NCBI GenBank assembly: GCA_001780955.1
Contig: MFJR01000007.1
Coordinates: forward strand, 449,482-494,776
Origin: Candidatus Gottesmanbacteria bacterium RIFCSPLOWO2_01_FULL_39_12b
GTDB lineage: Bacteria; Patescibacteriota; Microgenomatia; 2-02-FULL-39-11
Length of the DNA: 45,295 nucleotides
Reading direction: 5' to 3'
Shown here: piece after piece, positions 22,455 to 26,295 of the stretch
Layout: each line of letters begins with the position of its first letter
Position numbering within the stretch: position 1 is the stretch's first letter
Notes under the pieces: generated by a model
What the model saw: only the letters and a program-made list of their open reading frames with translations
The model's database searches: none
What the model was told of the DNA's origin: nothing
Made by a program: the position numbers and the translations under genes

Positions 22455-23348
22455 TTAGTTTTTCTTTAATACTTCAATAATCTCCCGAAGGGTCAACTTT
22501 GTCGGTTTACTTTCCGGATTTTTAATCGAGCCGTTTAAGAGCATTTTCCGGCTGGCATGCAAAAACCAAGTCGCTTCGCCATCTTTTTTCTTATATATAT
22601 TGTAACACGAAGTTAAATCCACAGCTGAATCTGGCATCGCTTTTATCCTGACGTAATCTTTTTTGGGGTCTTTCCTTACCGCAAGTATATATCCTTGTCT
22701 TTGAGCTACCCTTACCACTTCGTCGTTAACGGTATCGACTCCTATTCCTTTTCCCCATTTAGTCTTAAACTCTACTCCGTTTTCTTTCAATTCGTTTTCA
22801 GCCCAGACTTTATTCTGAAAAGATTTATAGATACCGTCAAGATTAAGCATGCCCAAATTAAGAATTTTTATATTGTCTTCGGAATATAGCAGTTTCCAGC
22901 CGTCAAGAATGGCCACCAACCCAAAATCATAGAAATCGGCCATGGGATTGGGGAAAGAACTTTCCCGGAAATGATCGATGTCATTGACTACATCCACCAA
23001 ACGTTCCAAGGCCTCATCTGGAAAACTATGATTTTTCTTCGTTCTCTGTTTTATGTTCCGCCGGCTGGCGGATGTTGTCTGTTCTCTGATGTACTCCATA
23101 GTTCTTTTTGCCGCACAGGTGTCCTCATCCGTCTGATGATGATCAAGCATCCCCATCCCGGTGTCAACATGCAGGATTTCCGGATCATGATCAGCCGGTT
23201 CATTATTAAGAGTTTTTCCCGCCGGGACGAATTTTACCTCAGCCTCTTTCCAGTCAGGCAAAAATCGCATCAAGAGCCAAACTGAGGTAATGGCATCAAC
23301 ATCGGGAGCAAGATGAGTAATGATAGTTTTCATGTGTTTATCAATCAA
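22455..23348 (-). CDS. MYG1/DHH-like phosphoesterase-type protein
   Basis: THLAPDVDAITSVWLLMRFLPDW, LHVDTGMGMLDHHQTDEDT, VVNDIDHF. Confidence 0.65.
   Translation of the reverse strand: MIDKHMKTIITHLAPDVDAITSVWLLMRFLPDWKEAEVKFVPAGKTLNNEPADHDPEILHVDTGMGMLDHHQTDEDTCAAKRTMEYIREQTTSASRRNIKQRTKKNHSFPDEALERLVDVVNDIDHFRESSFPNPMADFYDFGLVAILDGWKLLYSEDNIKILNLGMLNLDGIYKSFQNKVWAENELKENGVEFKTKWGKGIGVDTVNDEVVRVAQRQGYILAVRKDPKKDYVRIKAMPDSAVDLTSCYNIYKKKDGEATWFLHASRKMLLNGSIKNPESKPTKLTLREIIEVLKKN
23057..23072. repeat. Variant of 16-bp palindrome (TCCGCCGGCTGGCGGA) inside CDS
   Basis: tccgccggctggcgga; falls at TTSASRRN in the 22455-23348 protein. Confidence 0.8.
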
Positions 23349-24784
23349 TACGCCTGGGCAAAAAGCCAGCGATGGATAGCCTGTTTACCGCAATAAATAC
23401 ATTTTCCTTTCTCGTCTTTGGTTTCAAGGGGCAAGACGCGAGTAGAAGCTTTCGTTTCGTCTTTAATCTTCTTCTCACATAGAGCATCTTCACACCACAT
23501 TGCTTTGATAAACCCGCGGGTAGTACTCATAATTTTTTTGAATTCTTCATAAGAATTAACCGTATGCGTATTTTCTTCCGTGAATTTCTTTTGCTTTAAA
23601 AACATCTCTTTTTGTATTTCGTCTAATAATTTTATTATTTTATCCGGCAGATGACGATTCTCATTTTTAATGTTTAATTTTTCATTTTTATCTCTTCGAA
23701 ATACAGTCAATTCTCCGCTTTTAATCTCTTTCTCTCCGACTTCAATACGAACCGGAACTCCCTTTAACTCCCACTCATTAAATTTCCACCCTACTGTCTT
23801 TTCTTCTCTGTCATCTATTTTTACTCGGATACCAACCTCCTCCAACTCCGTTTTTAACTGATCACAAAATCGCGCTATTGCACTATTTTGTGATATGGGG
23901 ATTATGATAACCTGAACCGGAGCAATTCTTGGCGGAAGTACTAAACCCTGATCATCTCCGTGAGCCATAATTAAAGCACCGATCACGCGAGTAGTCTCTG
24001 CCCAACTGGTTTGCCATACATATTGTCGTTCACCTTTTTTATCCAAATATTGTATATTGAACGCCCTGGCAAAATTATCTCCCAGATGATGAGAAGTACC
24101 CATCTGAATCACTTTGCCATCCGGCATCAATGACTCCAATGAATAAGTAATGGCAGCTCCGGGAAACTTTTCGCTCTGGGATTTACGGCCTATAACCACA
24201 GGAATTGCCAATAGCTCTTCGTCAAATACCCGATAAATCTCGAGTATCTTACGGGCAAAATTATCAGCGTCTTCAAAAGTGGCATGAGCGGTATGTCCTT
24301 CCTGCCATAAAAATTCAGTGGTTCGCAAAAAAAGATATGTCCTTTTTTCCCATCTCACAACATTGTTCCAGATGTTTAAAAGCAGCGGCAAATCCCTCCA
24401 GCTCTCAATCCATCGGGAATAGGAATCGTACATGATGGTTTCTGAGGTTGGTCTGACAACCAGCGGTTCGGCTAATTTCTCTCCTCCTGCGATAGTCACT
24501 ACCGCCATTTGGGGTGAAAATCCTTCAACATGCTCCTTTTCCTTTTTCAAAAAACTGTTGGGAATAAAAAGCGGGAAATAGGCATTTTGGACACCGATTT
24601 CTTTGAATTTCTTATCCAGGTAATTTTGAATTATCTCCCAGACAGCGTAACCATTGGGCCTTATGATCATGCAACCTTTGACCGGAGAATAATCGGCCAT
24701 TTCAGACTTCAAAATGACATCCGTATACCAGCGGTCTGAATCAACTGACTTTTTGACTATTTGTTTTTTTTGGAAACCAGTCAT
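23345..24784 (-). CDS. proS: Prolyl-tRNA synthetase, archaeal/eukaryotic-like (type 3)
   Basis: ADYSPVKGCMIIRPNGYAVWEIIQNYLD, VRPTSETIMYDSYSRWIESWRDLPLL, TTEFLWQEGHTAHAT. Confidence 0.95.
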   Translation of the reverse strand: MTGFQKKQIVKKSVDSDRWYTDVILKSEMADYSPVKGCMIIRPNGYAVWEIIQNYLDKKFKEIGVQNAYFPLFIPNSFLKKEKEHVEGFSPQMAVVTIAGGEKLAEPLVVRPTSETIMYDSYSRWIESWRDLPLLLNIWNNVVRWEKRTYLFLRTTEFLWQEGHTAHATFEDADNFARKILEIYRVFDEELLAIPVVIGRKSQSEKFPGAAITYSLESLMPDGKVIQMGTSHHLGDNFARAFNIQYLDKKGERQYVWQTSWAETTRVIGALIMAHGDDQGLVLPPRIAPVQVIIIPISQNSAIARFCDQLKTELEEVGIRVKIDDREEKTVGWKFNEWELKGVPVRIEVGEKEIKSGELTVFRRDKNEKLNIKNENRHLPDKIIKLLDEIQKEMFLKQKKFTEENTHTVNSYEEFKKIMSTTRGFIKAMWCEDALCEKKIKDETKASTRVLPLETKDEKGKCIYCGKQAIHRWLFAQAY

Positions 24785-24844: not shown

Positions 24845-25171
24845 TTAAAATATTCGTTTGCCGAGTTTTGCATCAGGGTCGGGTCGCAAAAGCTCATAAC
24901 CGCCTTCGTCGCGCTCTGCTCCGAGGGTTAAAACTTCGGAAACAAACGGACCGATCTGTTTGGGCGCGAAATTGACGACACAGATCACTTGTCTTCCAAC
25001 TAAATCTTCTTTTTTGTAATTGGTGATCTGGGCACTTGATTGCTTGATACCAAGCGGTCCGAAATCAATATAAAGTTTGAAAGCAGGTTTAAGGGCCTGC
25101 GGAAAATCTTCCACTTTCACAATCTTTCCAACCCGCATATCTATTTTGGCAAAATCATCGTAGGTTATCAT
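24845..25171 (-). CDS. tRNA-binding domain protein (CsaA / MetRS C-terminal type OB fold)
   Basis: FAKIDMRVGKIVKVEDFPQALKPAFKLYIDFG, VNFAPKQIGPFVSEVLTLG. Confidence 0.9.
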   Translation of the reverse strand: MITYDDFAKIDMRVGKIVKVEDFPQALKPAFKLYIDFGPLGIKQSSAQITNYKKEDLVGRQVICVVNFAPKQIGPFVSEVLTLGAERDEGGYELLRPDPDAKLGKRIF

Positions 25172-25974
25172 AATTCCCCTATTTTATCATACCCTTTTTT
25201 AACTGATTCGGAAAAGAGCTTAGAAAATCCCCCTTCCTCCATACTCTTTAACACCTCTTCCGTAATTCCGCCTTTTGTGGCAACGGCAGAAGTTAATTTC
25301 TCTGGAGATTCACCCGTTTCCGACAAATGCTTTACAGTTCCGGTAAATGTGTTCAGTACGATCTTTGACACATCGTCTTCGTTTAACCCATACGACTTTG
25401 CGATCTTCTCCAAATTCTTCATAAAATAGGCAACGTATCCGATACCGCAGCCTGAGATCATACTTAACTTATCCAGGGTTTTTTCATCCTTACACTCAAT
25501 AATTAGCCCGAGCGGCTTTAAAAGTGACTTAACCAAAGTTTTATCTTGAACGGTTAAATAATCTCCCACCCAGCCAACTACACCCAACCCGTAAGCAACC
25601 GGAATATTGGGTATTACTTTGACCAGCTTAATCTCCTTTGCCGAAAAATATTTATGAAGTAAGTCAAAAGTTACACCGGCTGCGATTGAAATAATCAACG
25701 CGTCAGATTTTAGGTGAGTTTTAATTCCTCCAGCTACTTTTTCAACAACTTTAGGCCGGACGCCGATAAAAACTATTTCGGCATTTTTAACCGCTTCGAT
25801 ATTATTAGTGGTTGTCTTAAGACCATACTTCTTCCCCAGATCATTAAATCTCTCTAAATGGGGACCGGAAAGAATTATTTTGTCTTTGTCAACGGTTTTT
25901 GCTTTCAACAGGCCGTCAATAATTGCATGACTGATATGACCAACACCGATAAAAGTGATGTTTTTATTTATCAT
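25168..25974 (-). CDS. proC: Pyrroline-5-carboxylate reductase
   Basis: ITFIGVGHISHAIIDGLL, IFIGVRPKVV, SIAAGVTFDLL, VIPNIPVAYGLGVVGW. Confidence 0.92.
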   Translation of the reverse strand: MINKNITFIGVGHISHAIIDGLLKAKTVDKDKIILSGPHLERFNDLGKKYGLKTTTNNIEAVKNAEIVFIGVRPKVVEKVAGGIKTHLKSDALIISIAAGVTFDLLHKYFSAKEIKLVKVIPNIPVAYGLGVVGWVGDYLTVQDKTLVKSLLKPLGLIIECKDEKTLDKLSMISGCGIGYVAYFMKNLEKIAKSYGLNEDDVSKIVLNTFTGTVKHLSETGESPEKLTSAVATKGGITEEVLKSMEEGGFSKLFSESVKKGYDKIGEL

Positions 25975-26025
25975 ACTTACAGAACTTTTTTTATTTTACC
26001 AAATTCGAGGTCTATTTGTCTTTAC

Positions 26026-26077
26026 AAAAAAAACCTCATCTTTATCCCGAACATTCTTGTTCGTGGACAAGGACGAG
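26026..26077 (-). terminator. Intrinsic terminator of the T-box
   Basis: Minus strand CTCGTCCTTGTCC-aCGAACA-AGAA-TGTTCG-GGATAAAGATGAG-G-TTTTTTTT. Confidence 0.88.
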
Positions 26078-26103
26078 ATTTCGTCGTGGTACCACCTTGC
26101 TTT

Positions 26104-26119
26104 TCCGCCAGCTGGCGGA
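26104..26119. repeat. 16-bp palindrome TCCGCCAGCTGGCGGA inside the T-box leader
   Basis: exact tccgccagctggcgga just 5' of the antiterminator. Confidence 0.9.
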
Positions 26120-26267
26120 CTTAATTTATCGAGCTCCGTTTATAACGACACTCGTGCTTTCTTTTTACGGTTTCGCCTCCGTCATACTTGTCGTATGCAA
26201 CTCATCTGGCGGTAAAGAACGTTTAACGTTCAAACCAGACTAGTAACGCTTTTATTTATCTTTTTTT

Positions 26268-26295
26268 ATTATACCAAAGAAATCTTGTCTGTCAA
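26268..26295 (-). promoter_or_regulatory. Consensus sigma70-type promoter for the T-box transcript
   Basis: Minus strand TTGACA (26290-26295), 16-nt spacer, TATAAT (26268-26273). Confidence 0.8.

Follow-up and report, generated by a model that had tools for sequence, protein, structure and literature searches.

What controls the expression of the proline genes at this locus? The window, that is, the whole stretch of 45,295 nucleotides that was analysed, carries three such genes in a row on its minus strand. They are proC (25168..25974), encoding a pyrroline-5-carboxylate reductase of 268 aa with a TIGR00112 score of 193 bits, just below the cut-off of 196.75; a gene for a CsaA-like tRNA-binding OB-fold protein of 108 aa (24845..25171); and proS (23345..24784), encoding a family I prolyl-tRNA synthetase that scores above the cut-off of TIGR00408 (proS_fam_I). 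A proB-type kinase was sought in the same genome and none was recognised in the assembly, which is 84% complete. A scan of named genomes with the ProC protein recovered distant relatives only, in Bacteroidota and Ignavibacteria. Upstream of proC, a leader occupies positions 26026-26295 of the minus strand from its promoter to a U8 tract. The promoter joins a -35 hexamer TTGACA (26290..26295) to an extended -10 hexamer TATAAT preceded by TG (26268..26273) through a spacer of 16 nt, and it matches the sigma-70 consensus at 12 of 12 positions. The functional RNA begins near 26262 and ends at 26026, and the U8 tract ends about 50 nt upstream of the proC start. The segment 26015-26262 folds more stably than its shuffles (z = -4.7). 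The initial annotation had described this promoter and this gene order, and both were upheld, the genes by profiles and sequence. It had proposed a T-box riboswitch that controls a proline operon, and it named no specifier and did not mention the unusual form of Stem I and of Stem II reported below.

Our main conclusion is that the leader most probably acts as a transcriptional T-box riboswitch that couples the expression of proC-csaA-proS to the charging of tRNA-Pro; we put the probability of this reading at about 90%. A permissive covariance search with the Rfam model RF00230 matched 26066-26255 over the whole model (1-219 of 219) at 37.5 bits and an E-value of 5.2e-7. The Rfam search at the gathering threshold, which is 93 bits for RF00230, found nothing in the window. 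Most T-boxes of the taxonomic class to which this bacterium belongs also score below that cut-off. In addition, the window contains the pattern of antiterminator plus terminator a single time, and none of 400 simulated strands of 45 kb contains it; without the terminator, the antiterminator pattern was present in 30 of the 400. Three further RF00230 matches lie in the same genome, upstream of alaS (specifier GCC), a purU-like gene (GGC) and serA (UCC). The gene names given for T-boxes come from sequence inspection and are profile-based only for proC, the csaA-like gene and proS.

The 5' half of the leader is compact. The whole of Stem I comprises 37 nt (26204..26240), and the fold and the alignment give it a lower helix GUCUGG/CCAGAU without a long distal arm. 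Its specifier loop includes a small distal hairpin of 15 nt, GAACGU-UAA-ACGUUC (26217..26231), which is seen in the fold, the alignment and the sequence and is missing from all six orthologues described below. Stem II is a 5-bp hairpin, CAUAC-GACAA-GUAUG (26183..26197), placed by the alignment. Stem IIA has the form ACGG-loop-CCGU (26167..26182) in both the RF00230 match and the alignment. Pairing of the IIA loop with a short stretch immediately 3' of IIA forms the IIB pseudoknot, which has 2 bp only (GC/GC) in the window leader. Between IIA/B and Stem III, the alignment places an extra clade-specific hairpin with a conserved UGUC/GGAG internal motif (26130..26154). Its flanking pairs covary, and it is not in the RF00230 consensus as printed. 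The same hairpin is present in about 27 T-boxes of the taxonomic class, with Stem I short or long; it accompanies Pro, Trp, Tyr, Asn and some Arg genes, and none was observed at Gly, Ala or Ser genes. Stem III, UCCGCCAGCUGGCGGA, is followed by AA (26104..26119) and is supported by the RF00230 match and the fold.

The 3' half of the leader contains two structures that compete for one strand. The antiterminator (26068..26099), located by the RF00230 match, the alignment and the sequence, consists of A1 (CAAGG/CCUUG), the 7-nt T-box bulge UGGUACC (26088-26094) and A2 (ACGA/UCGU). The bulge is conserved across the seven orthologous leaders. A2 is closed by A-U in the window leader, and known structures have G-U there. 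The intrinsic terminator hairpin CUCGUCCUUGUCC...GGAUAAAGAUGAG (26035..26077) overlaps the 3' strands of A1 and A2, has the CCUUG strand in common with the antiterminator and is followed by the U8 tract (26026..26033). The initial annotation had listed these antiterminator elements and the alternative pairing of CCUUG in a terminator, and all of them were located. Left to fold freely, the 3' part forms the terminator at -40.6 kcal/mol, and the value with the antiterminator enforced is -27.4 kcal/mol. The terminator is favoured by 13 kcal/mol, and therefore antitermination would need a ligand. The sequence elements and the two competing folds, like the covariation and the conserved gene context that follow, were computed here. 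At least 80 of the 94 T-boxes of the taxonomic class have a terminator that overlaps the antiterminator strand and ends in a U-tract. The automatic terminator test was negative for 14 leaders, in which inspection by eye found mostly short terminators outside its distance limits. By eye, a few leaders, L079 and L033 among them, resemble sequestrators of the ribosome site.

An orthologous leader was found upstream of proline genes in six other genomes among 15 of the order, all from one family. It precedes proB-proA in G012, ornithine cyclodeaminase in G008 and G011, proB in G002, proB-proA-proC-csaA-proS in G007 and proB-proA-proC-proS, with no csaA between proC and proS, in G006. In G010 and G014, proC is truncated by a contig end. 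We counted helix changes on hand-aligned strands of the seven leaders because MAFFT misplaced the inserted hairpin of the window leader. Compensatory changes occur at 4 of 6 pairs in Stem I, at all 5 pairs in Stem II, at 2 of 4 pairs in the outer stem of the extra hairpin and at 2 of 4 pairs in A2. Stem I pairs completely in 6 of the 7 leaders; that of G002 pairs poorly and retains UUUCCCG. A1 and most of IIA are invariant. The IIB pairing varies among the orthologues yet stays complementary (GUUU/AAAC, GCUU/AAGC, GAA/UUC and GGA/UCC). The initial annotation had named the lack of a covariance match, and of a conserved bulge or terminator in related genomes, as grounds against a T-box; the match was found, below the gathering cut-off, and both bulge and terminator are conserved in the relatives.

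We then considered which tRNA the leader would recognise. The specifier loop of the window leader reads UUUACCG, which offers two candidates. The usual frame gives ACC (26211-26213; Thr), and the frame one nucleotide on gives CCG (26210-26212; Pro). The norm of the taxonomic class is the codon, one nucleotide and then the lower helix, with a codon that usually ends in C. The specifiers include GCC at alaS, UCC at serA, AAC at an aspartate aminotransferase-like gene, UUC at pheS, AUC at an Ile-type synthetase, GGC at glycine genes and UGG at trp genes. Automatic detection of Stem I could be trusted only for compact hairpins, many long ones being given false helices, and therefore only clear loops were used. 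The six Pro orthologues have UUUCCCG at the specifier site, and therefore their specifier is CCC or CCG. CCG makes up 10% of the Pro specifiers in TBDB (PMC7778990). In the window leader, the CCG frame puts C, not a purine, after the codon. A pyrimidine is tolerated there: C follows UCC in the serA T-box of this genome, and C or U follows UAC in Tyr T-boxes.

The initial annotation had expected UGGU to pair with a tRNA ending in ACCA. The genome has tRNA-Pro(cgg) and tRNA-Pro(ggg), both with A73, and one detected tRNA-Thr, with U73. An ARAGORN call of 'Pyl(cta)' in the same genome is, by its anticodon loop, more likely tRNA-Arg(UCU). Across the taxonomic class, the bulge base agrees with the expected discriminator: UGGA accompanies Gly and Thr genes, UGGC accompanies Arg, Ser and Trp genes, and UGGU accompanies Pro, Ala, Phe, Tyr and Ile genes. 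One exception was noted, the serA leader L003 with UGGU. We favour CCG as the probable specifier because UGGU fits A73, which both tRNA-Pro genes have, but not U73 of the detected tRNA-Thr, with UGGA being the form for Thr and Gly, and because the Pro leader L094, before csaA-proS, has the loop CUCCGAA, in which CCG is the only Pro codon. The main alternative to CCG is a base error or partial decay. The proline control proposed in the initial annotation agrees with this bulge base and with the proline genes behind the six orthologous leaders. The specifier frame, tRNA binding and the direction of control are what we infer from comparative evidence.

The same data bear on three other explanations. 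A working T-box with the specifier ACC would sense tRNA-Thr while controlling proline genes. Such a specifier would stand in the usual frame, end in C like most of the taxonomic class and be followed by a purine. However, UGGU would be left unpaired with U73 of the detected tRNA-Thr, the bulge of the sole thrS T-box observed (L071) is UGGA, the 84% complete assembly yielded no tRNA-Thr(GGU), and every gene of the operon concerns proline. We consider this explanation very unlikely. Alternatively, the T-box may be decaying or contain a misread base, so that the inserted hairpin and an A as the first specifier base weaken tRNA recognition and leave mostly a plain attenuator. The window leader is known from a single draft assembly, and therefore a one-base error is possible. 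Among the seven Pro leaders, only this one deviates from UUUCCCG and has a hairpin in the specifier loop, and its IIB is short. The promoter, the lower helix of Stem I, Stem II, the antiterminator, the bulge and the terminator are nevertheless intact, and other T-boxes, for example that of alaS (L001), have comparable distal mini-hairpins. Decay or error is thus an unlikely account.

An ordinary attenuator, or a leader bound by a protein, could resemble a T-box by chance. The operon itself encodes a candidate ligand of this kind, the small CsaA-like protein with its tRNA-binding fold. This explanation is hardly credible in view of the full covariance match, the covariation of T-box-specific elements and the agreement of specifier with gene and of bulge with discriminator in many leaders. 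Furthermore, the orthologous leaders stand before proB or ornithine cyclodeaminase, and the G006 operon has proC and proS without csaA between them.

If the leader is a T-box for tRNA-Pro, as we favour, the tRNA-Pro anticodon would bind the specifier in the short Stem I of the nascent leader, most likely CCG with tRNA-Pro(CGG). The ACCA end of an uncharged tRNA would pair with UGGU and hold A1 and A2 together, and the polymerase would read through. With a proline-charged tRNA, the bulge would stay unpaired, CCUUG would join the more stable terminator, and transcription would stop at U8.

Four T-box classes have been defined, and tRNA binding is reinforced by an IDTM, an S-turn or both (PMC10482949). 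Transcriptional T-boxes generally need a long Stem I (PMC7583486). A long Stem I with an IDTM, the tip that binds the elbow, is absent from all Pro leaders. Visual judgement recognised no K-turn-like GA pair at the base of Stem I in these leaders, and no Stem II S-turn (GAA/AGUA) was recognisable by eye, a test that a divergent form could escape. The Pro leaders therefore appear to fit neither published statement. The window leader resembles Class I (B. subtilis tyrS type, RF00230) in its UGGNACC bulge, competing terminator, IIA/B, Stem III and amino-acid operon. It differs from Class I in lacking the long, IDTM-bearing Stem I, a K-turn-like GA pair and a recognisable Stem II S-turn, and in carrying the UGUC/GGAG hairpin before Stem III. 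The orthologues resemble Class III (Nocardia farcinica ileS, ultrashort Stem I), with the specifier in a 7-nt apical loop on a 6-bp Stem I without IDTM. Class III is mostly translational and requires a Stem II with S-turn (PMC10482949), but the Pro leaders end in a terminator and U-tract, and their Stem II has 5 bp. The window leader is like Class IV (Actinomyces odontolyticus ileS, intermediate Stem I) in that two Stem I helices flank the side loop that holds its specifier, and in having no IDTM. Unlike the mostly translational Class IV, it has a terminator and no recognisable Stem II S-turn.

The combination of a terminator and a short Stem I, with no IDTM and no recognisable K-turn or S-turn, appears to fit none of the four classes. 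We tentatively suggest, at somewhat less than even odds, that this family's Pro T-boxes constitute an additional structural class, one that terminates transcription without an IDTM or S-turn hold on the tRNA. Perhaps the UGUC/GGAG hairpin or the small loop of Stem II takes the place of the IDTM at the elbow or the S-turn at the codon-anticodon helix. The combination runs counter to the generalisation that a T-box acting on transcription depends on a long Stem I, and the Pro leaders are small natural constructs for probing the minimal requirements of a T-box.

The middle of the window leader has a different affinity. Its IIA/B and extra hairpin (26130-26182) are 80-88% identical to those of the Trp T-boxes L018, L030 and L087 and 48-72% identical to those of the other Pro leaders. 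These Trp T-boxes, from the same family, have the bulge UGGC, whereas Stem I, Stem II and UGGU of the window leader are of the Pro type. This suggests that the window leader may be a mosaic whose middle module was exchanged with a Trp-type T-box.

Other T-boxes of the taxonomic class also showed unusual arrangements. Five leaders lie upstream of tRNA genes of the same specificity: L005 (G056:C10:25328-25600), L007 (G003:C27), L015 (G028:C9:14468-14800), L053 (G028:C9:7976-8261) and L064 (G053:C29). A UAC specifier precedes tRNA-Tyr(GUA) in four genomes. An ORF and tyrS come after the tRNA-Tyr(GUA) gene in L005, and in L064 another ORF separates the T-box from the tRNA, which lies at a distance of about 550 nt. 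L053 lies upstream of tRNA-Phe(GAA) and pheS. In such an arrangement, uncharged tRNA would activate its own gene, and we found no description in the literature of a T-box controlling a tRNA gene of the same specificity. L020 and L079 (G016:C3:25376-25700) are tandem T-boxes upstream of one gene, and the second seems to conceal a ribosome-binding site instead of forming a terminator. L054, L058, L083 and L052 precede PEP-carboxylase-like genes, with the specifiers Asp (GAC) in L054 and Asn (AAC) in L058, and would tie a central carbon enzyme to tRNA charging.

Finally, we determined how widely T-boxes occur. RF00230 matches at E <= 0.001 were found in 36 of 59 relatives, mostly incomplete genomes, and, at reduced sensitivity, in 98 of 294 genomes across the phylum. 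Among the 14 control genomes, five matched (Bacillus, Lactococcus, Corynebacterium, Thermus and Deinobacterium), and E. coli and the remaining controls gave no RF00230 match. Ribosomal protein L30 was absent in 40 of 40 relatives tested and L9 in 39 of 40. The absence of both is a signature of Microgenomates within the CPR, and together with the small genomes it agrees with the CPR-like character given in the initial annotation. T-box surveys list mainly Firmicutes and Actinobacteria, with a few Chloroflexi, Deinococcus-Thermus and Proteobacteria (PMC2494555). The initial annotation knew of no T-box description in Patescibacteria, and our search for T-boxes in Patescibacteria, CPR, Microgenomates or Parcubacteria likewise found none in a literature that left most subscription journals outside. 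The full alignments of TBDB or Rfam may already contain such sequences, unremarked. T-boxes that control amino-acid genes and synthetases are thus common in this phylum of small genomes, in about one third of those sampled, and therefore these bacteria probably sense amino-acid starvation with RNA.
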